Assembly: GCA_003134685.1 (NCBI GenBank)
Contig: PLCA01000002.1
Coordinates: 397,966 to 461,965, forward strand
DNA length: 64,000 nucleotides
From: Gemmatimonadota bacterium
GTDB taxonomy: Bacteria > Gemmatimonadota > Gemmatimonadetes > Gemmatimonadales > Gemmatimonadaceae
Direction: 5' to 3'
A model generated the notes under the pieces. That model did not search any database and had not been told where the DNA came from. It saw only the letters and a program-made list of their open reading frames with translations. The position numbers were made by a program, and so were the translations under genes. Shown in pieces: positions 30,855-50,955 of this stretch (the first letter of the stretch is position 1; each line of letters begins with the position of its first letter).

Positions 30855-30875
30855 ACGCGGAATATATGTGTCCAC

Positions 30876-30966
30876 CGAACGCCTTGGTTTAGCTGCAAGC
30901 ACACTATCACCGTTGCGGCGAAGCCGCATCCGAAAAGTGCTTGTCTGCTGCAACGTTCGTTAGGCC
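30876..30966 (-). repeat. attC site 1 (integron cassette recombination site)
   Basis: Read on the minus strand: R'' GCCTAAC, L'' CGTTGCAGC, a variable arm with the GCGGC/GCCGC hairpin, L' GCAGCT, then a degenerate R' (GGCGTTCGG). It is close to identical to attC 7 and attC 8 in the core (AAGTGCTT, ATGCGGCT). Orientation was set by matching to the well-known aadA attC (CTAAC...GTTCAAGC...GCTTAACTC...GCGTTAG), which appears on the minus strand here. Confidence 0.82.
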
Positions 30967-31023
30967 GCGGTGCGACGTCGCACGGACCGTCGTCCCCGAT
31001 TGATCGTCAGCTTCGGCCCCTCG

Positions 31024-31395
31024 TTAGGGGGACCCGTTGGGATCAAGACCCTTTATTGGGCGATATGAATACGCGAGCATGCCGAGGTTGAGGATCCCCA
31101 CAATCACCGCCGATAATGCGATTCTCCGGCGGACTAGCGTTGCTAGAATCATCGCCAGCAGGAGAACAAATGAAGTGAGCCGTGAGGATCGGCGACTCCG
31201 TCTTAGCGAGGCGGCCATCTGATCATATTTTTGCAGCATCGATCGTGGCTCAAAGCCCACCTGCAGACCCTCCCTATAGGCACACAGCTCGACACGCTTG
31301 CGAATCGTCTCTGCATGGTCGCGAGGAATGGCGGTCCCATGCGGAGTCGTCCAATTCGCGAACACCTCGGTGCTGGCCACCCATTCATAGCGCAC
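31024..31395 (-). CDS. Cassette-encoded membrane protein, unknown (second gene)
   Basis: A 123-residue product from GTG 31395: a soluble N-terminal half (RYEWVASTEVFANW...) followed by two hydrophobic helices (about residues 75-92 and 96-112). The same frame is open upstream to about 31498 and reads protein-like (PFFVVYQESGSRLDVDFQ), but contains no ATG, GTG or TTG. The true start may therefore be non-standard, or the gene may be joined to its upstream neighbour by a frameshift. The stop is 58 bp before attC 1. Function unknown. Confidence 0.55.
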   Translation of the reverse strand: MRYEWVASTEVFANWTTPHGTAIPRDHAETIRKRVELCAYREGLQVGFEPRSMLQKYDQMAASLRRSRRSSRLTSFVLLLAMILATLVRRRIALSAVIVGILNLGMLAYSYRPIKGLDPNGSP

Positions 31396-31451
31396 ACGAA
31401 GTGGGACGCGCTGAAAGTCAACGTCGAGGCGGGAGCCAGACTCTTGGTAGA

Positions 31452-31766
31452 CTACGAAGAACGGCTTTTCGCTTTCTGAGCGACTTGTGATCGTTCAGTC
31501 CCCGATAGCGAAAATCCGAAATACTGCGCCAGTCCACTTCTAAGTGATGGCCAGATCGCGGAAATGAGCGCTCCTGCAAGTATGAACCCGACGACATAGA
31601 AGGAAAGGAGTCTGATTTCTTCCGGTGAGACCGGCGCAATGTGTCCGCCCCTTGCAATGAAAAACAGACCTCTCAAAACGCCGACTACGATACACAGCAC
31701 GCCGACGGCGCCGCCTGTAAGCGAGCCAACTAGGATCCGCTTCAATAGATCATTTTGAGGGTGCAT
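31452..31766 (-). CDS. Cassette-encoded two-helix membrane protein, unknown (first gene)
   Basis: A 104-residue protein with two hydrophobic segments (about residues 11-37 and 53-70) and a basic, Ser-rich tail. ATG 31766 is 19 bp past the R' end of attC 2 on the minus strand, the standard cassette start geometry. It shares its cassette with the gene at 31024-31395, so this is a two-gene cassette. I do not recognise the family. Confidence 0.6.
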   Translation of the reverse strand: MHPQNDLLKRILVGSLTGGAVGVLCIVVGVLRGLFFIARGGHIAPVSPEEIRLLSFYVVGFILAGALISAIWPSLRSGLAQYFGFSLSGTERSQVAQKAKSRSS

Positions 31767-31784
31767 TCAATACTATTGCGTCGG

Positions 31785-31876
31785 CCTAACGCCCGAGTTA
31801 AGCTGCGAGCGGATTCAACCACTGCGAGCGAAGCGAGCTTCCAAAGACCGCTCGTCAGCTTCAACGATTAGTTAGC
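31785..31876 (-). repeat. attC site 2
   Basis: Minus-strand reading: R'' AGCTAAC, L'' around TTGAAGCTGA, a long variable region with the CGCTTCGCTCGC hairpin, L' GCAGCTTAAC, R' GGGCGTTAGGC. R' carries the conserved GCGTTAGG with the G/TT crossover. It separates the 31913 gene (upstream cassette) from the two-gene cassette. Confidence 0.87.
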
Positions 31877-31912
31877 TAGCCGGCACACCAGTGTGCGCCC
31901 GAAGGTGCTCGA

Positions 31913-32401
31913 CTAGAGCGTGAGCGGCGGGCGGCCGCGGGAAGGAAGGATTCGCACGCGCGCGCTGGCCGCATCGGCGGCGGCTTCGAGAGTAATGCCG
32001 ACGTTGATCGCGTACTCCGTAGCCCAGTGCAGGAACTCGTCGCGACTCATCTCACACTGCGATGTCCCCGACTCGAACCGGATCGGCCTGTGCTCGACGC
32101 CGAGCGCGGCGAGCTTGTCCGCGTAGTACTGCACCTGGTTGGCGACTCCATGCCTGACTACCTGTTTGCGCTCTTCGTCCAACGTGTCGATCGACCATAG
32201 CCCGAGCATTCCTGGCTCGAGGAGCGGCGCCACCAGCAGGGGCTTCGCTAGAGCACCGAGCCTCGTCCGCGTGCTGACCCAATCGAGGCGCTCGCCGCCA
32301 GGCCACAGGAGCCACAAGTCTGGCGCCTGCGGTACGTCGGGGCGTGCGTACGATTGGGCGCGCCGGACGATCTGAAGGGTGAGTTCCGCGCCAGTGTCCA
32401 T
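31913..32401 (-). CDS. Cassette-encoded protein of unknown function
   Basis: A 162-residue soluble protein with no signal peptide or membrane helix. It starts MDTGAELTLQIVRRAQSYARP; the middle contains LDEERKQVVRHGVANQVQYYADKLAALGVEHRP and the end is basic. ATG 32401 lies about 20 bp past the R' of attC 3 and the stop is about 37 bp before attC 2, so gene and attC form a complete cassette. I do not recognise the family. Confidence 0.6.
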   Translation of the reverse strand: MDTGAELTLQIVRRAQSYARPDVPQAPDLWLLWPGGERLDWVSTRTRLGALAKPLLVAPLLEPGMLGLWSIDTLDEERKQVVRHGVANQVQYYADKLAALGVEHRPIRFESGTSQCEMSRDEFLHWATEYAINVGITLEAAADAASARVRILPSRGRPPLTL

Positions 32402-32421
32402 CGAGTAGATCCGTGTGGCTA

Positions 32422-32520
32422 GCTAACGCCGAGCTAAGCTGCAAAGGAATCAAATAAGAGTTTGCGGCGCAGCCGCAAACAATTCAATAGATCCTTTGTC
32501 AGCTTCAGCGTTCGTTAGAT
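32422..32520 (-). repeat. attC site 3
   Basis: Minus-strand reading: R'' ATCTAAC, L'' GAACGCTGAAGCTGA, a hairpin TTTGCGGCTGCGCCGCAAA as variable terminal structure, L' GCAGCTTAGC, R' GGCGTTAGCT. It marks the boundary between the cassette holding the wHTH/HEPN operon and the 31913 cassette. Confidence 0.87.
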
Positions 32521-33001
32521 GACCGGCACGTGATCCATGATCGGTCGAGGCGGAGATCATCAAGGAATCCTGCCCGCGGAACGAGACGCAGACGGGGAAC
32601 GTTGATGTCCCGTTCAAGAACATCCGGGTATCGCTCCCACAGTACACCATCGTGTGGCCCAGTCCCTCACGGGAAGCGGTCCGAATCAAGCAGTCATCCA
32701 ACGCAATCATTAAGCGAACCGACGGTTGCAAGTCGAGCAACATCAGAATCGGGAATGCGAGACGGACTGGGTGCCTGTGCTGAGGACAGCGGTTCTTGCG
32801 CTCCAGGCACGGATCGCTGCTCGGTAAAGCTACCGCCGTCATGCCGACGCCGACGTGGATCTGTTCCAGATACGCGATGGCGTCACGAACGCTCGCGGCG
32901 GGATAGCGACAACTCCGCTCCTCACGCACTTCAACCGACGGCACGGTCGTGCTTACATTCAGGGACAGCCCTGACGTGGGAGTTCCGCGCAGTCGTCGCA
33001 C
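32450..33001 (-). pseudogene. Chimeric ORF: inverted copy of the 5' end of the 33399 gene fused to unrelated sequence
   Basis: An open frame of 183 codons from GTG 33001. Residues corresponding to EVREERSCRYPAASVRDA through GMTAV duplicate the N-terminus of the wHTH gene at 33399 with a single Arg-to-Cys change; the underlying DNA (32832-32932) matches 33417-33517 inverted at 100 of 101 positions. The ATG of the original is ACG here. After the repeat the frame enters unrelated sequence and ends inside attC 3. It is best read as a recombination remnant, although the downstream part (about LQPSVRLMIALDD to the stop) could be a cassette gene that lost its own start. Confidence 0.6.
32832..32932 (-). 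repeat. 101-bp inverted repeat, left copy
   Basis: The reverse complement of 33417-33517 with one mismatch (C/T in GAGT[C/T]GTCG). Weaker similarity continues about 15-20 bp further toward the start codon side. The 484 bp between the copies contain the whole upstream region of the three-gene operon. Confidence 0.95.
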
Positions 33002-33072
33002 GGACAGTGGGGTTCCTCAGCGCGGTCAGGCACGCTTCGGCATTCACTGTAGTCACCGCGCACTATAGCCGC

Positions 33073-33108
33073 TCCTAATTATGAAAAGCGTTCAATTATT
33101 CGTTAGGC
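33073..33108 (-). repeat. Degenerate, minimal attC-like hairpin
   Basis: Minus-strand reading begins with a good R'' box (GCCTAAC) and GAATAATTGAACGC, resembling L'', but the second half is reduced to TCATAATTAGGAG, with an R'-like ATTAGG lacking GCGTT. CCTAA and TTAGG ends pair. At 36 bp it is shorter than usual attC sites, so it may be an eroded cassette boundary. Confidence 0.4.
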
Positions 33109-33398
33109 CGTCCATATCGACACATTGGCCGTCAACAGCGCGGCTCCCATTGCAGTGGTTAACTCCTTAATAATCAATAAGATATAACTAGTGGCGTCCA
33201 CGGAGAAGGCTAATACATGGCTCTGGCAGTCTGATCATGGCGCACAGTCGTTTTGTTCCAATCTATGGGCGCCGATGCTGAGCTATAGAACAATGGGTTC
33301 GCTAGATCGCCCGCATCGCTATGCGAGCAAATAAAGCGGCAGGCCTTGACAAACTAGCCTTGGAACGCGACCTTCTAGGTCCACCCACGGGAGTGAGA
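33109..33398 (+). promoter_or_regulatory. Upstream region and candidate promoter of the three-gene cassette operon
   Basis: This 290-bp stretch is visibly more AT-rich than its neighbours and has no gene. A candidate sigma70-type promoter is TTAACT (33159-33164), 18 bases, TATAAC (33183-33188). A second TTGACA at 33346 lacks a clear -10 partner. GGGAG precedes ATG 33399. Because the operon runs against the attC orientation it cannot use an integron Pc promoter and needs its own. Confidence 0.45.
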
Positions 33399-34160
33399 AT
33401 GACCGGGCCGTCTAGTGAAGTGCGTGAGGAGCGGAGTCGTCGCTATCCCGCCGCGAGCGTTCGTGACGCCATCGCGTATCTGGAACAGATCCACGTCGGC
33501 GTCGGCATGACGGCGGTGTCTCGGGAGACAATGGTTCAGGCGCTCGGGCATTCTAGCGTGAATGGCGCCTCGAAGGCGAAGCTGGCGGTTCTCCGCCATT
33601 TCGGGCTGCTCGACCGTGAGGGTGAGCGCTACCGCATTTCGGAGTTAGGAAAGCGTGTAGTTATTCCTAGGTCCGATGCCGAGCGGGACGCGGCCACCGT
33701 CGATGCCGTGAGGCAGCCCGCTCTGTTTCAGGAGTTGGGGGCTACGTTCGATCAACAGCGCCTTCCGGCAATGCTTGCGAATGTCATTGCGCGTGACTTC
33801 GGCGTGACTGCTCAGGCGAGCGCGGAAGTCGCTGATGTGTTTACTCGAAGTGCTGAGCAAGCCGGACTACTCATCGATGGCGTATTGAGGTGGACCGGAG
33901 AGCGCGACCAGGCTGCTGGGACGGACACTTCACCTGAGCGTCTCGAACGTCATCAGAGCACGGCACAGTTGAGCTCTGAGCGTGCCCTTTCCGCGGCCGA
34001 CGGGACAGAGTCCTATACCATCCCGCTCGATAGCCGGGGCAAAAAGGCGCTCATCCACATTCCGGTTCCGACTGCGTCGAAGGACCTCGACCGGATCGCA
34101 GCGTGGGTCAGCTACATGCGCAGCGTGGTTTCAGACGACGCTGAACCCTCGACCGAGTGA
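33399..34160 (+). CDS. wHTH protein A of a three-gene cassette operon (candidate defence system)
   Basis: A 253-residue protein. Residues 17-85 look like a winged helix (YPAASVRDAIAYLEQIHVGVG; ALGHSSVNGASKAKLAVLRHFGLLDREGERYRISELG). A helical middle follows (about 90-165, ending VFTRSAEQAGLL), then a polar Ser/Asp-rich linker and a short beta-rich C-terminal segment (SYTIPLDSRGKKALIHIPVP). Protein C has the same order of segments, so A and C are probable paralogues. ATG 33399 has GGGAG 6 bases upstream. The gene for B follows after 13 bp. Protein fold resembles DUF5343-like wHTH proteins; function unknown. Its 5' end is duplicated in inverted orientation at 32832-32932. Confidence 0.75.
   Translation: MTGPSSEVREERSRRYPAASVRDAIAYLEQIHVGVGMTAVSRETMVQALGHSSVNGASKAKLAVLRHFGLLDREGERYRISELGKRVVIPRSDAERDAATVDAVRQPALFQELGATFDQQRLPAMLANVIARDFGVTAQASAEVADVFTRSAEQAGLLIDGVLRWTGERDQAAGTDTSPERLERHQSTAQLSSERALSAADGTESYTIPLDSRGKKALIHIPVPTASKDLDRIAAWVSYMRSVVSDDAEPSTE
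33417..33517 (+). repeat. 101-bp inverted repeat, right copy (inside protein A gene)
   Basis: Encodes EVREERSRRYPAASVRDA through GMTAV of protein A. It matches the left copy (32832-32932, minus strand) at 100 of 101 bases, in the same reading frame relative to the two open frames. Confidence 0.95.
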
Positions 34161-34173
34161 GCTGCGAAGTCTC

Positions 34174-35151
34174 ATGTCTTCGTCCTCGCGCCAGTTCACG
34201 TTGAAGTTCTCGCCAGTCTCGATCGAAACGCTGATCGAGACTGTTGAGGCAATAGCCGCTCATCCAAACGCTAGCCGTGATTCCGCTGCGCGCTTCGCTG
34301 GGCTTGGAACATCAACGGTTGGGAAGGCGATTCCGCTTCTTATCGCATTTGGCCTAGTCGAATCAAATGGGTCGGGTCTGCGTTGCACGGAGCCAGCTAT
34401 CCGTCGCGGAGTCGCTGATACGATGGTACGGCAAGCGATTCGTCGAGCGCTTGTTGCATATCGCCCTTTTGAGGTCCTGTGTGAAGGGCTTGCCCTGGGC
34501 GAGAGCGCAACAGAGGCGATCCGCAAGGCATCCGTCATCTTAGGCATTGAGAAGAGCGACTTGGATCGCTTCGATTTTCTCATCAAGCTCGGTGTCGACC
34601 TGTCACTTCTCCGCGAAGTCGACGGCGTAGTGGAGCTTGCACCTGAAGTCACTCCGGCGGCCACTGCACATGGCCCGTTCATTACGTCGAATGACGTCGA
34701 GTCCGAAGTAAAGTCACGTCTCTACGTCGCCGGACGGATCGGGCGCGATGCCTTCAACGCCCTTGATGACAGGGATCGCGGGTTGCTCGCTTCATCGCTT
34801 CTCTCGATTAGTGCCAAGCCCTCGGAGGCGGTGGAGCAGGCAGGGCAGACGACAGAGAACTATCTACGAGAGCTCTGCGGAAAGCGTGGGCTAGCAGCGG
34901 AAGCTGCAAAGCAAAACGGTGCCGGTCAGCTCGCGTCACTTCTCGCGTCAAAAGGCATCATTCACAGCCATCAGGTGAAGCTCGTCGATACGGTCGGCGC
35001 GCTGCGCAATGCGAAGGTACACCACAAAGACAAGAAGACCCTCGTCCCGTGGCAAATCACAGAAGAGGGTGCCCTCGCGTCATTCTTTGCCGCGGTAACT
35101 GCAATCAAGTCAATCGAAAGCTACCTCAATACAGGATCGCAGATCTTATGA
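34174..35151 (+). CDS. wHTH-HEPN-like protein B of the cassette operon (candidate effector)
   Basis: A 325-residue protein. Residues 12-75 resemble a winged helix (SPVSIETLIETVEAIAAHPNASRDSAARFAGLGTSTVGKAIPLLIAFGLVES), and 75-165 a helical domain as in A and C. The C-terminal 110 residues are helical, reading NYLRELCGKRGL...LASLLASKGIIHSHQVKLVDTVGALRNAKVHHKDKK. RNAKVH (278-283) fits the HEPN R-x4-6-H signature, and the surrounding pattern resembles Abi_C/HEPN-type abortive-infection domains, which are often metal-independent RNases. It would therefore be the toxic effector; this is inference from one motif. It starts 13 bp after A and its stop overlaps the start of C (ATGA). Confidence 0.75.
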   Translation: MSSSSRQFTLKFSPVSIETLIETVEAIAAHPNASRDSAARFAGLGTSTVGKAIPLLIAFGLVESNGSGLRCTEPAIRRGVADTMVRQAIRRALVAYRPFEVLCEGLALGESATEAIRKASVILGIEKSDLDRFDFLIKLGVDLSLLREVDGVVELAPEVTPAATAHGPFITSNDVESEVKSRLYVAGRIGRDAFNALDDRDRGLLASSLLSISAKPSEAVEQAGQTTENYLRELCGKRGLAAEAAKQNGAGQLASLLASKGIIHSHQVKLVDTVGALRNAKVHHKDKKTLVPWQITEEGALASFFAAVTAIKSIESYLNTGSQIL

Positions 35152-35867
35152 CGACACCCATTGCTACAAACAAGACGAAGAGTCCCGCTACTCCGTCGTA
35201 CGGTTTGAAGGATTCCTATGCCGACGCGAAGAAGTTGTACGCGAAATTTAGCCATGCGTCCTTTTCGGCCCCCGAAATTGCATCAGCGCTCGGGATGTCG
35301 TCGTCCTCAAGCTCGTTTACGAAGCGTGTGTTCTCTTTGATCGAGTATGGGCTACTTGATCGCGTCGGTGATAAGTTCACGGTGTCGAAGACGTTTCATA
35401 CGCTAGATCAGAGCGACTCGGCGAAGCCGGACTTCCAGCGTGCCGCGATGTCAGCGATTCGCCGCTCGACGGTCTTCTTGGAGATCCTAGCAGACTTTAA
35501 GTCCAAGCTTCCGCCCGAAGACGTAGTTGCACAGCGTCTCGAACGTGAGCGCGGATTCAACGCAGATCGCGCGAAAGACGTGGCGCGAGTACTCCAAAGT
35601 TCCCTGATTTTTGCGGGGGTCATCGATGCGAACAACAACATCCTGCCAGTGCGCGACGTCGACCCTCAGCCAAGCGTCGATCAAGCTGGCACCGGTGGCG
35701 ACCAGGAGGCCGCGGCGACGGCACCAAGCGTCGGTTCGATAGCTGGGCTTCGCAGGACTGAGGTTCCGCTATCGGACGGTCGGATCGCCGTCGTTCAATA
35801 CCCGCACGATCTTTCCTCGGGAGAGGCAACGAAAATTGGAAAGGTGCTGGCTGCTCTCGTTGATTGA
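35148..35867 (+). CDS. wHTH protein C of the cassette operon
   Basis: A 239-residue protein paralogous to A: a winged-helix segment (residues about 22-85, SYADAKKLYAKFSHASFSAPEIASALGMSSSSSSFTKRVFSLIEYGLLDRVGDKFTV), helical middle (DVVAQRLERERGFNADRAKDVARVLQSSLIFAGVI), polar linker and a beta-rich C-terminus (RRTEVPLSDGRIAVVQYPHDLSSGEATKIGKVLAALVD). ATG 35148 overlaps the stop of B, so translation is coupled. The stop lies 125 bp before attC 5. A and C may be regulators or sensors controlling B; function unknown. Confidence 0.75.
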   Translation: MTTPIATNKTKSPATPSYGLKDSYADAKKLYAKFSHASFSAPEIASALGMSSSSSSFTKRVFSLIEYGLLDRVGDKFTVSKTFHTLDQSDSAKPDFQRAAMSAIRRSTVFLEILADFKSKLPPEDVVAQRLERERGFNADRAKDVARVLQSSLIFAGVIDANNNILPVRDVDPQPSVDQAGTGGDQEAAATAPSVGSIAGLRRTEVPLSDGRIAVVQYPHDLSSGEATKIGKVLAALVD

Positions 35868-35991
35868 GAGTCCTGCCGTTCAACGGCCGTTGGTGGTCGA
35901 AGCCGATGACTCCGAGTCTTGCCTATCCTTCTCGGTCCATAACCATCTCGACGATATCAAGCCCCATCTACAAACGACCTCTCTGTGGTCA

Positions 35992-36088
35992 TCTAACGCC
36001 CAAGTTCAGCTGCGAGCGATTCTACCATAGCTGCGATCAACCTCAATTCCTTAAAGCCAGCGCTCGTCTGCTGCAACGTTCGTTAGAT
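35992..36088 (-). repeat. attC site 5
   Basis: Minus-strand reading: R'' ATCTAAC, L'' GAACGTTGCAGCAGACGAGCGC, variable region, L' TCGCAGCTGAAC, R' GGGCGTTAGAT. Both simple-site boxes are consensus. It closes the cassette of the 36106 gene and opens the cassette that contains the reversed wHTH/HEPN operon. Confidence 0.9.
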
Positions 36089-36105
36089 AGCAGGAGCGTC
36101 GACCT

Positions 36106-36720
36106 CTAGTTCCGAACGCGTCGAGCGCAATAATAACCCTTGTCGCCCACGACGATTCCCCATGGCTCGAAGGTGCCTTTGAACCCATCCGCGTCAATCT
36201 GTTTCACAATCATCCCAGTTCCACCGCCATCCTCCCCCATAACGTCATCGCGCCGATTACCGACTGTGTGCAGCAGTAAAGCAATCCAGTTTCGCATCCG
36301 CTGGCCGGTAGTCTTTGAGATCGGTGCATCGAGCAAAACAGGCGGATAAATCGGGTCGACCCCACTATGCAGGAGCTCAATCCGAGCCGGCGTAAAGTTT
36401 CCTGAATCTCGAACCATAACGCCGTAGAGCGGGTGGGTGACCGTGTCGCCTACAGCTGGCCGCTTGTGCTCGTTCGGTGAAGAGTCGCGCATCGATGCTT
36501 TCCAAAGAAATAGTCGAAGTCTCGCGCTCTCACGATGCTGGCCCGATGTGCTAATCCACTGAACCCGATATTCGCCAGTCATTGTTAGCGGGTCCCAATC
36601 AGGAGCAATGGTTGACTTGGCTGTGCTGTCGCAGGCCTGCGCGTAAAGCTGATTAGTGCCGCTTGGCAATAAAGCGGCGAGCAGGCAGATGTCGAGGAGA
36701 GACTTCATTCGCCAAAGCAT
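36106..36720 (-). CDS. Cassette-encoded secreted protein of unknown function
   Basis: A 204-residue product with a signal peptide (MKSLLDICLLAALLPSG, cleavage near YAQA). The mature part contains a beta-rich domain (LTMTGEYRVQWIST; RLRLFLWKAS; HPLYGVMVRDSGN) and ends in a globular segment GFKGTFEPWGIVVGDKGYYCARRV. ATG 36720 sits 11 bp after an isolated R' box (GTTAGAT, 36731-36737) and the stop is 17 bp before attC 5, so it is a complete cassette in standard orientation. I do not recognise the family. Confidence 0.65.
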   Translation of the reverse strand: MLWRMKSLLDICLLAALLPSGTNQLYAQACDSTAKSTIAPDWDPLTMTGEYRVQWISTSGQHRESARLRLFLWKASMRDSSPNEHKRPAVGDTVTHPLYGVMVRDSGNFTPARIELLHSGVDPIYPPVLLDAPISKTTGQRMRNWIALLLHTVGNRRDDVMGEDGGGTGMIVKQIDADGFKGTFEPWGIVVGDKGYYCARRVRN

Positions 36721-36730
36721 ATGTGCTGCT

Positions 36731-36737
36731 ATCTAAC
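36731..36737 (-). other. Isolated attC/attI-type R' box
   Basis: CTAGTTAGATAGC on the minus strand contains a GTTRRRY box 11 bp upstream of the 36720 start. The rest of an attC or attI site to its right (36738-36840) is not convincing, and no integrase gene follows. It probably marks the original upstream end of this array block. Confidence 0.45.
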
Positions 36738-37214
36738 TAGTAATTGTACTGCGTGCTTATACTGCGGAGAAACGACAAATGCCGCAACGGGTTCGGGTGA
36801 TATTAATTCAGCGCTTGTCGCATCGTGGGCGTAAGTCCTTCCCTGGAACCCGCTTGGGGATTCACAAAATCGGCGGAGGTCAGTGTTATCTTGCGAAAGA
36901 GTTGCAGTATAGCAATGCGTGGAATTGGGGACGGATCGTAGTTCGCGGAAGTAGGGACCAGGCCCGGCCTACGCAACCGCTGCGAATCAGAGTCGATCCG
37001 CCGGACTCGTCACGCCAAGTCCACCACGGTTGAGAACGTGCGTGTAGATCATTGTCGTCTGCAGCCATGGTCAAGCCGGAGAGCCCGTCGCCACGCACTG
37101 ACTCGAACCATGTTGCCGCTGCCGCCGCATTATCGCAGCATATAGCGCGACCGCAACTTACTAGAATCGTCGTGCCGCTTCAGAGTGAAGACTGAAACCA
37201 AGGGTGAGGCCCTC
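36738..37214. other. Intergenic region without recognisable gene
   Basis: About 475 bp between the cassette block and nagB. Short open frames on both strands (for example 36779-37033) have no ribosome site, family resemblance or domain-like composition. No integrase, attI or terminator was recognised. The promoter of nagB should lie near its right end. Confidence 0.5.
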
Positions 37215-37997
37215 ATGGAAGTAGTCATCAAGCAGAATTACAACGAGATGAGCAAACTGGCGGCGCAGATGGTCGCCGAGCTGCTCAACACCAAGCCCAA
37301 CGCCGTGCTCGGCATGGCGACGGGCTCCACACCGCTCGGGCTATACCAGGAGCTGGTGCGAATGTACCAGCGGGGTCAGCTCGACTTCTCACGCGTGATG
37401 ACGTTCAATCTGGATGAATACGTCGGCCTCCCCGGCAATCACCCGCAGAGTTACGCCTACTTCATGCAGGAGAATTTCTTCAAGCACGTGAACGTCCAAC
37501 CTCAGAACATCAACGTCCCCTCCGGCACGACCAGTAACTATCCGGCGTTCTGCGACTGGTATGAAAAACGAATCGCGGAGAGCGGCGGGATCGACCTTCA
37601 GATACTCGGCATCGGCAGTGACGGTCACATTGCGTTCAACGAGCCGACGAGCTCGCTCAGCTCGCGGACTCGTCTTAAAACGCTGTCGAAGCAAACGATC
37701 GACGACAACGCGCGATTCTTCGAGCGGCGCGAAGACGTGCCGGTGTATGCAATCACGATGGGAGTCGGCACGATCCTGGAGGCGCGCCAGCTGTTACTGG
37801 TCGCGAGCGGAAAATCGAAGGCGAGGGCGATTGCGCAGGCGGTGGAGGGGCCGGTGACCAGCATGGTGACCGCGAGCGCGCTGCAATTGCATCTCGACGC
37901 GACCGTCTTCGCCGACGAGGACGCGGCGTCGGAGCTGACGATGCGCGACTACTACGAGTTCATCTACGCGGCCAAGCCGGCGGCACCCAAGACGTAG
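37215..37997 (+). CDS. nagB: Glucosamine-6-phosphate deaminase
   Basis: A 260-residue enzyme that isomerises and deaminates glucosamine-6-phosphate to fructose-6-phosphate and ammonia in amino-sugar catabolism. Family blocks are intact: LGMATGSTPLGLYQELV, VMTFNLDEYVGLPGNHPQSY (catalytic Asp) and LGIGSDGHIAFNEPTSS (His and Glu). ATG 37215 follows GTGAGG; the earlier GTG 37185 adds a non-conserved leader. This core metabolic gene lies between the two cassette blocks. Confidence 0.95.
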   Translation: MEVVIKQNYNEMSKLAAQMVAELLNTKPNAVLGMATGSTPLGLYQELVRMYQRGQLDFSRVMTFNLDEYVGLPGNHPQSYAYFMQENFFKHVNVQPQNINVPSGTTSNYPAFCDWYEKRIAESGGIDLQILGIGSDGHIAFNEPTSSLSSRTRLKTLSKQTIDDNARFFERREDVPVYAITMGVGTILEARQLLLVASGKSKARAIAQAVEGPVTSMVTASALQLHLDATVFADEDAASELTMRDYYEFIYAAKPAAPKT

Positions 37998-38032
37998 CTG
38001 GCTGCTCCCTCTCTCAATATCTGGAGGTCGTC

Positions 38033-38340
38033 ATGGTTGGGCTCTCCGCACTGTGGATGCCGATCGTCGTATCGGCGGTGTTCGTGTTCATCGCGCTTGC
38101 GATCATTCATGGGATGCTGGGCTGGCACAAGGGCGACATGGCCGCCGTCCCCGGCGAGGCGAAGGTCATGGAAACGCTGCGCGGCCTGAACGTGCAGCCG
38201 GGGGACTATCGCTTCCCGTTCTCCAACAGCGTGGATGAGATGAAAACGCCGGAGTGGGACGAGAAGATGAAGCAGGGTCCCGTGGGCATCATTACGCCCT
38301 GATCACCGGCGCGACATTCGGCTGGCTGTGGCCGCACTAG
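38033..38340 (+). pseudogene. Membrane protein gene with internal deletion
   Basis: The 89-codon frame 38033-38302 encodes an N-terminal membrane helix (LWMPIVVSAVFVFIALAIIH) and a soluble segment ending DEKMKQGPVGIITP. Family members I recall (about 150-160 residues) continue with several more helices and end ...GTFGWLWPR. Here the downstream sequence, shifted in frame, reads LITGATFGWLWPH and stops at 38340. The pattern implies loss of roughly 70-80 codons in the middle plus a frameshift. The N-terminal part may still be translated: GGAGG precedes ATG 38033. Confidence 0.55.
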
Positions 38341-38355
38341 CTAGCAAGCCCGATG

Positions 38356-38905
<550 letters not shown>

Positions 38906-38988
38906 TACGTAAGAGTATTGCCGATGGTGTAGCGTAGCAAACTATGCCCTTCACCCCCGCCGCCCTCCGCTTTTTCGATGCTCGTTGC

Positions 38989-39087
38989 TGGCTAACGCCT
39001 TAGCTCAGTTGCGAGCGAGCCAAGTAAAAGCGCATGCGGAGCATGCGCAAACCTTAAATCGCTTGACAACTGCAGCGTTCGTTAGCT
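38989..39087 (-). repeat. attC site 6
   Basis: Minus-strand reading: R'' AGCTAAC, L'' GAACGCTGCAGTTGTCAAGCG, a GCGCATGCTCCGCATGCGC hairpin, L' TCGCAACTGAGC, R' AAGGCGTTAGCC. It closes the cassette of the 39170 membrane protein. Confidence 0.88.
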
Positions 39088-39169
39088 GGCGACCTCGTGA
39101 TGCTTGTCTGCTCTGGCGGGACGCTGCCGCCTGACGCGGTCCACGATCTGGTCGGTCGGCGCAACCTGT

Positions 39170-39703
39170 TCAAGTCCGAACCGCTCTGCGCGGTTCCGAC
39201 GCGATCGTCCCGCTCACGGGCACAGAGTCGAATGGCAGACTCGAAGTCGGCCCCGGCGATCCGCGAGACACTGCGCGCGCGAGAAAGGCGCCTGCGGAAA
39301 ACCCGACGAACCCCAGGAATGCCATATGGTGCCATGCCCATGGTCCCCCCAGCCAGCCAGCAGTAAGTCCCGCGGCGAGCCCCACGTTTGTGCAGAGGAG
39401 TAATCTGCCCAATGCCACGCGGCGAAGTGCACTGAATGCGACGAGTGTTCCCAAGACAGAACCGGCGACGCCCGCCGCAAAGCCGTATTCAACCGCCATC
39501 AACGCGACTTGCGCCCCGCCCATTGGCTCGGTCGGCGTCAACACCGCAGCAGCGATGAGCGCAGCGACTCCGCCGGCGACTGCTCCGCCGAGCGCGCTCA
39601 GACCTCCAACGATCGCCACTGCAATACCTCGCGGAGAGTTCACTGCTACTCGCAGAGTATTGATCGGCGAACCATCATCTGACCAGGTCATGTTCCTTCC
39701 CAT
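39170..39703 (-). CDS. Cassette-encoded polytopic membrane protein, unknown
   Basis: A 177-residue, Gly/Ala-rich protein with about four hydrophobic segments (residues 26-50, 65-92, 98-115, 125-142) and a polar, Pro/Ser-rich tail. The start at 39703 lies 19 bp after the R' of attC 7, so it is in standard cassette orientation; M5 is an alternative start. I do not recognise the family. Confidence 0.65.
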   Translation of the reverse strand: MGRNMTWSDDGSPINTLRVAVNSPRGIAVAIVGGLSALGGAVAGGVAALIAAAVLTPTEPMGGAQVALMAVEYGFAAGVAGSVLGTLVAFSALRRVALGRLLLCTNVGLAAGLTAGWLGGPWAWHHMAFLGFVGFSAGAFLARAVSRGSPGPTSSLPFDSVPVSGTIASEPRRAVRT

Positions 39704-39721
39704 AGTAGGAGCGCGATCGCC

Positions 39722-39810
39722 AGCTAACGCTCAAGTTCAGCTGCAAGCTCAGTACAACTTGCGGTGTAGCCGCATCCGAAAAGTGTTTGGCAGCTGCAAC
39801 GGTGTTAGGC
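39722..39810 (-). repeat. attC site 7
   Basis: Minus-strand reading: R'' CGCCTAAC, L'' CCGTTGCAGCTGCC, variable arm with ATGCGGCTACACCGC, L' GCAGCTGAACTTG, R' AGCGTTAGCTG. It shares most of its length with attC 1 and attC 8. It closes the toxin-antitoxin cassette. Confidence 0.88.
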
Positions 39811-39824
39811 GTCGCCGTTGGGTG

Positions 39825-40025
39825 TTAGCTCGCCTTACGCTTAGCGATTAACGCACGAACTTTCGCCACGAGGTCCACCGGCACATTCATCGATGTGTGG
39901 GTCGTTGCCTGGTAAGCCAACTCGTCCGCTTCCACGGCCTCGTTGTCAGTTTGTGCGTCGTAATGTTCAGCGACTCGTTTGACGCGAGCTTCGTCCCGTC
40001 CTCTGGGCAGACTTGATTTGCTCAT
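39825..40025 (-). CDS. Antitoxin of a toxin-antitoxin cassette
   Basis: A 66-residue, charged, helical protein (MSKSSLPRGRDEARVKRVAEHYDAQTDNEAVEADELAYQ...MNVPVDLVAKVRALIAKRKAS), typical of small antitoxins paired with RelE/BrnT-fold toxins. The C-terminal VPVDLVAKVRALIAKR is the common helix that neutralises the toxin or binds DNA. ATG 40025 overlaps the stop of the upstream toxin frame (ATGA). The stop is 15 bp before attC 7, so the pair fills one cassette. Confidence 0.75.
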   Translation of the reverse strand: MSKSSLPRGRDEARVKRVAEHYDAQTDNEAVEADELAYQATTHTSMNVPVDLVAKVRALIAKRKAS

Positions 40026-40303
40026 TGCTTCTTCTTACGTCGCCGTTTCAGAGCGCGTAAGGCCTTGGCTCCAAACTCCAAGGCTGTGACAACAAAGACG
40101 AGTCGGGCTCTGGGTCTGCAACATAGACTACCCTACTGATAACGCCCATTTCTGGTCTGCCCGACAGCGACTCTGCTTCCATCGCGACCGGCCCTGTCTT
40201 CTGCGGGCCGTTGTGAGACTTCTTCAGCATCCGTCTCTGTGACGTGATGACGATGGATATGCGGTTCGCCACTTTCTGGATCGGGACAGAACCGAATGTG
40301 CAT
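40022..40303 (-). pseudogene. BrnT/DUF4258-like toxin gene with two compensating frameshifts
   Basis: From ATG 40303 the frame reads MHIRFCPDPESGEPHIHRHH, EAEEV-like TDAEEV, EDRAGRDGSRVAVGQTRNGRYQ and then stops. The expected continuation (RVVYVADPEPDS) is in the next frame for about 38 bp. The last part (VFVVTALEFGAKALRALKRRRKKK) returns to the first frame and overlaps the antitoxin start. One inserted and one deleted base explain the pattern. The parts together match small toxins of the BrnT/DUF4258 type, so the toxin is probably inactive while the antitoxin is intact. Confidence 0.7.
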
Positions 40304-40363
40304 CAGGCATAGTGTCCTGCAATTAGGCCAGGGCCTAGAGCCGCGAAAGACTGCGTATGCGTA

Positions 40364-40456
40364 CGCCTACCGCCCAAGTTCAGCTGCAAGCACACTATCA
40401 CCATCGCGGCGTAGCCGCATCCGAAAAGTGCTTGTCAGCTGCAACGTTCGTTAGAT
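40364..40456 (-). repeat. attC site 8
   Basis: Minus-strand reading: R'' ATCTAAC, L'' GAACGTTGCAGCTGAC, AAGCACTTTTCGGATGCGGC arm, L' GCAGCTGAACTTG, R' GGGCGGTAGGC. The R' box has GGT instead of GTT at the crossover, so recombination here may be impaired. It is nearly identical to attC 1 in the central 60 bp. Confidence 0.85.
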
Positions 40457-40624
40457 GGTCGAGCGATGACGTTGACATCATAGTCCGTCTTCGCGAGGTG
40501 ACCGCCACGCGTCGAATCGTTGCGCTGCCTCGGCGCGCGCGAATTCATTCTCATAGAACAAATCCGCCCCGCCATCATAGGGTGCGTACGCCTGTCCCGA
40601 GTCGAGCGAGACGAGAACGCATCG

Positions 40625-50385: not shown

Positions 50386-50439
50386 CCTTGTGCAGCGCGC
50401 GGAATTCTTGGATTGTCGCGCGCGGTCGGCGCGGGGTGT

Positions 50440-50909
50440 CCTCTTCGGGAGCTCTCGCCTGTAGCTTCGTCGTGCGGCTCGCTACACCGCGCCGCCTTGC
50501 AGCGGCGCTGGCTCCGGCCGCTCCCTCAGAGGACACCCCTTGCCTCCTGCCTGAGACTTGTAACAGCACGTGCACCAGAAGTTTCGCGCGCGAGCACTCT
50601 CAGCTCAGAAGCCATTCTCCGCGCGCCTAAGCGCTCGGACGCGGCGGAGCCGCGAGGCCCGCGACCGAAAAGCGCGACACGTACATCTCTGACGCTACCC
50701 GCAAGGCCCCGGCGCGCGAGCGCGCCGCGGTACTATCGCACACGCGGCGCGAAGCGCCGCGTGCAGTTACGAAACCCGTTGGGAAGGAGGGTGAGGGTGT
50801 CCTCTGAGGGAGCGGCCGGAGCCAGCGCCGCTGCAAGGCGGCGCGGTGTAGCGAGCCGCAAGGCGAAGCGCGGGTGCCCGCTTACGGGCAGGAAGAGCTC
50901 CCGAAGAGG
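50440..50909. repeat. Giant palindromic intergenic element A
   Basis: Most of the gap between the CMD and deacetylase genes is an imperfect palindrome. Perfect 66-bp arms lie at 50473-50538 and 50795-50860 (TGCGGCTCGCTACACCGCGC and so on), and outer 16-bp arms at 50440-50455 and 50894-50909 (CCTCTTCGGGAGCTCT). The 256-bp centre holds further GC hairpins (for example CGCGGCGCGAAGCGCCGCG near 50744). No gene is supported. It is related to element B at 54312-54741. Confidence 0.9.
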
Positions 50910-50955
50910 ATATCCTCGCCCGACTGACCGGCGATGGTATCAGTAACTGCGCGAC

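Follow-up and report, generated by a model that had tools for sequence, protein, structure and literature searches.

Three kinds of described system come closest to the locus presented here. In hsdS-type inversion loci such as spnIII of Streptococcus pneumoniae, a long, near-identical coding repeat is common to an expressed gene and a truncated copy in inverted orientation, and at spnIII inverted repeats of 85 bp and 333 bp recombine without RecA (PMC6620402). When inverted arms are homogenised, whether by template switching or by gene conversion, a tract of near-identity results that is flanked by diverged homologous sequence; in yeast, template switching homogenises inverted arms that are much shorter than those described below (arms of at least 7 bp and spacers of at most 70 bp in the yeast screen, vs ~100 bp and 484 bp here; PMC8604942). 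CALIN, or decayed chromosomal integrons, carry two or more clustered attC sites in the same orientation and no intact integron integrase.

The present locus shares features with all three. Within a 64,000-nt window (the whole stretch of DNA analysed, from contig PLCA01000002.1 of a Gemmatimonadota bacterium), a 101-bp stretch near the start of gene A, the first gene of an operon of three (A, B and C), is repeated in inverted orientation upstream as a partial copy, A' (Table 1).

The inverted repeat lies within a single integron cassette

When the genome was searched with a covariance model (R1) derived from repeated sequences of the window, 27 attC sites were found. Eight of these lie in the window at 30873-40457, all on the plus strand, with starts at 30873, 31783, 32420, 35990, 36742, 38989, 39721 and 40364. 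No match to the integron integrase model TIGR02249 above cut-off was found genome-wide and, given the integrase remnant downstream of the operon (Table 1), the integrase seems to have been lost from this cassette array. The array resembles a CALIN: its attC sites are clustered, share one orientation and have conserved ends and arms able to fold, its cassettes are of unknown function, and just an intI remnant lies nearby. Unlike a CALIN, it includes a large cassette (three genes, ~3.57 kb) in which a fragment of the first gene is repeated in inverted orientation; this one cassette encloses both arms together with the A-B-C operon. The initial annotation had described the repeat as flanking the operon's upstream region. 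The setting had been missed: what was taken for an upstream region is the 5' portion of a cassette in an integron array. A candidate for a second cassette boundary at 33102 (CGTTAGGC) was rejected, since it yielded neither an attC-like match nor a fold. Of note, the same genome contains more attC arrays, on contig C4 (about 266-282 kb) and on contig C1 (474-476 kb).

Table 1. Coordinates of the cassette, its genes and the inverted repeat in the window
Feature	Position	Strand	Description and basis
attC, left cassette bound	32420..32521	+	Model R1, 81.9 bits; folded arm pairing
A'	32832..32932	-	Inverted copy of gene A codons ~7-40, 100/101
A' diverged continuation	32933..32956	-	17/24; ACG opposite the ATG of gene A
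Spacer	32933..33416		484 bp, 5' region of the operon; inverts if the arms recombine
Gene A	33399..34160	+	253 aa, winged-helix-like, weakly similar to CARF-associated HTH
Right arm of the inverted repeat	33417..33517	+	Within gene A
Gene B	34174..35151	+	325 aa, N-terminal part winged-helix-like
Gene C	35148..35867	+	239 aa, distantly paralogous to gene A (26%)
attC, closes the cassette	35990..36089	+	Model R1, 79.4 bits
Integron-integrase C-terminus remnant TTMIYTHVLNRGGLGVTSPADRL	36990..37061	-	24 residues, TIGR02249 positions 292-315, from translation

Realignment of the two arms confirmed what had initially been reported of their position, their 100 matches in 101, the length of the spacer between them and their common reading frame, which is that of gene A. 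The arms match in register and in inverted orientation, with a lone mismatch (in gene sense, C in gene A and T in A'), and a search of all 16 contigs of the genome (3.63 Mb) confined the arm sequence to these two sites. A' indeed carries ACG at the place of the ATG of gene A, as had been noted. The start codon proposed for gene A, ATG 33321, did not hold: its likelier start is ATG 33399, which is preceded by an SD-like ribosome site, GGGAG. Gene A is presumably expressed from this ATG in the present orientation.

The operon and its relatives

The similarity of gene A to PF24744 (E 0.0012) fell below the cut-off. Sampling of 297 other genomes of the phylum yielded relatives in eight, the nearest being 38% identical, and none of these eight distant homologues has an inverted partial copy beside it. 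For gene B, no relatives were found in the 297 other phylum genomes, plasmids, PDB, Pfam, NCBIfam or PADLOC, and its structure model (mean pLDDT 43.5) is usable at residues ~15-95 only. None of the three genes matched the defence-system models of PADLOC or those of NCBIfam. As far as each gene was searched for in plasmids, phages, viral contigs and genome contigs, no relatives of gene A or B were returned; in the collections searched with back-translated peptides, such a search reaches close relatives only. From the location of the operon in a cassette array, a role in host defence or regulation would be a guess.

Eighteen congeners contain no copy of the cassette, and their matches comprise attC sequence and one short match. 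As the cassette itself is missing there, its absence says little about inversion.

A step in identity points to homogenisation of an older copy

The near-identity of the arms ends abruptly. Outward of the arms there is zero continuation of similarity; inward, a further 24 nt match at 17/24 (71%), with no similarity beyond. The two levels of identity are clearly distinct (100/101 vs the adjoining 17/24; Fisher p = 3e-5), and the similarity of the 24-nt flank has a P of about 6e-6 in register; in a gapped local alignment its score was reached in 46 of 2000 shuffles, which is only moderately significant. Such an abrupt drop in identity within seemingly real homology suggests that A' is an older copy, the core of which was later homogenised. 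On the truncated side, homology and homogenised tract end together, as expected if the tract reached the end of the homology. Thus, the inverted repeat is most likely a recombination scar. We consider it probable that the 5' end of gene A was duplicated head-to-head, that the duplicate was truncated and that its core was recently homogenised, although the case for an older copy leans mainly on the 24-nt flank. That the gene A homologues examined have no inverted partial copy beside them also speaks for this reading.

In the course of events that we propose, the beginning of gene A would first have been duplicated head-to-head; this inverted copy would have been truncated at codon ~40 and have diverged from gene A, the 24-nt flank being a leftover of this divergence. 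The remaining ~100 bp of A' would then recently have been overwritten by the corresponding stretch of gene A, or have overwritten it, either by gene conversion or by a polymerase switching templates between the inverted arms. This order (duplication, truncation, homogenisation) is our inference, as would be any assignment of the donor arm. Counting against it, none of the relatives shows an intermediate stage.

Two other origins of the identity were weighed. Conservation of the protein was rejected: A and A' agree at every third codon position of the arm (~33 codons), so that silent sites are identical as well and selection at the protein level cannot explain the match. Alternatively, 101 bp of gene A could have been duplicated in inverted orientation in one step, by a template switch or a microhomology-mediated event, with a coincidentally similar flank, or the repeat could be an assembly error. 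The abrupt stop of identity at 33517/32832 would fit a one-step duplication, but the P of the flank in register speaks against coincidence, and all four arm borders join unique, differing sequence, unlike a fold-back assembly artefact. We therefore regard this explanation as very unlikely and retain that of an older, homogenised copy.

A' itself is probably a non-functional relic. Outside the arm (32450-32830), its frame looks non-coding, with a score of -0.11 per codon as against +0.06 to +0.11 for genes A, B and C. This, with the lack of a family match, led us to reject A' as a genuine minus-strand gene. Counting against a relic, the frame is open across 183 codons, and low coding potential is also seen in some likely cassette genes.

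Inversion of the spacer as an alternative

Recombination between the arms could also make the locus an invertible ON/OFF switch. Here, homologous recombination, RecA-dependent or -independent, would flip the spacer, a leader without a start would silence the operon, and a second flip would restore it. At 101 bp, the arms are long enough for this, judging by the spnIII repeats. When the spacer was inverted in silico, the frame of gene A stayed open and received a leader without ATG, its own ATG and GGGAG being replaced. A switch is therefore conceivable, and the present orientation looks to be ON, as inversion would strip gene A of its start and ribosome site.

The assembly shows one orientation of the spacer only, however, and no recombinase gene lies at the locus, whereas site-specific invertible promoters have a cognate recombinase encoded nearby. 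Genome-wide, there is no serine recombinase (PF00239), and seven matches to the tyrosine recombinases (PF00589) are all on contigs other than that of the locus, C1. The absence of the cassette from the sampled congeners, and of the arrangement from gene A homologues, likewise weighs against a switch. The comparison with hsdS-type loci is similarly partial: long inverted repeats do occur in an expressed and a truncated copy (the expression of gene A being assumed), but the spacer carries a leader, that is, a 5' region and not alternative protein domains, so that inversion would remove the start of gene A and swap in no useful alternative gene end. Overall, a switch function is possible but unsupported, and flipping as an ON/OFF mechanism seems unlikely. 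The initial annotation had set a recombination scar or gene conversion beside the switch; the mosaic of the arms and their flank favours that alternative, and the switch lacks direct support.

Possible folding of a read-through transcript

The repeat might instead act in RNA. A transcript reading through from upstream cassettes would fold the arms into a 101-bp duplex that occludes the start of gene A, thereby limiting translation to transcripts initiated within the spacer. The duplex has a predicted energy of -230 kcal/mol; pairing of the arm is complete in the read-through transcript (unpaired 0.01 vs 0.32), where the SD-start region is also less accessible (unpaired 0.27 vs 0.52). Array cassettes can, moreover, have internal promoters (PMC8618304). 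Yet any 101-bp inverted repeat would be expected to fold in the same way, and the duplex is hence not evidence of function. In addition, a simple consensus scan of the spacer, which covers promoters of the sigma-70-like type only, found none, and the homogenised core begins 18 nt past the ATG. We find such an insulator decidedly unlikely, and the homogenised older copy remains the preferred reading.

More broadly, a cassette might carry its own switch, in that a truncated inverted copy of its first gene flips the operon start or folds onto it in read-through RNA, and expression of a possibly costly operon would be confined to transcripts from its own promoter or to some of the cells; we rate this as rather improbable. 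Were flipping or silencing to occur, the cassette would govern its own expression after insertion into an array, with bearing on how costly cassettes (for example, those of defence) persist. If it is instead a scar, the repeat illustrates clearly, on a small scale, how inverted arms become homogenised within an integron cassette.

Other inverted pairs in the genome

About 180 kb of the genome was also compared with itself for inverted pairs lying within one region (at least 40 nt at 80% identity or more). The repeat with its flank appeared as a 125-nt inverted match, well outside what chance would produce (self-BLAST, E = 4.7e-48), and the only other pairs at these thresholds were of 88 nt, part of a dispersed intergenic repeat, and of 58 nt. 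A GC-rich intergenic inverted structure with 88-nt arms (92% identity) lies at 50430-50920 in the window; it is a member of a dispersed repeat family with about a dozen other sites across the genome.
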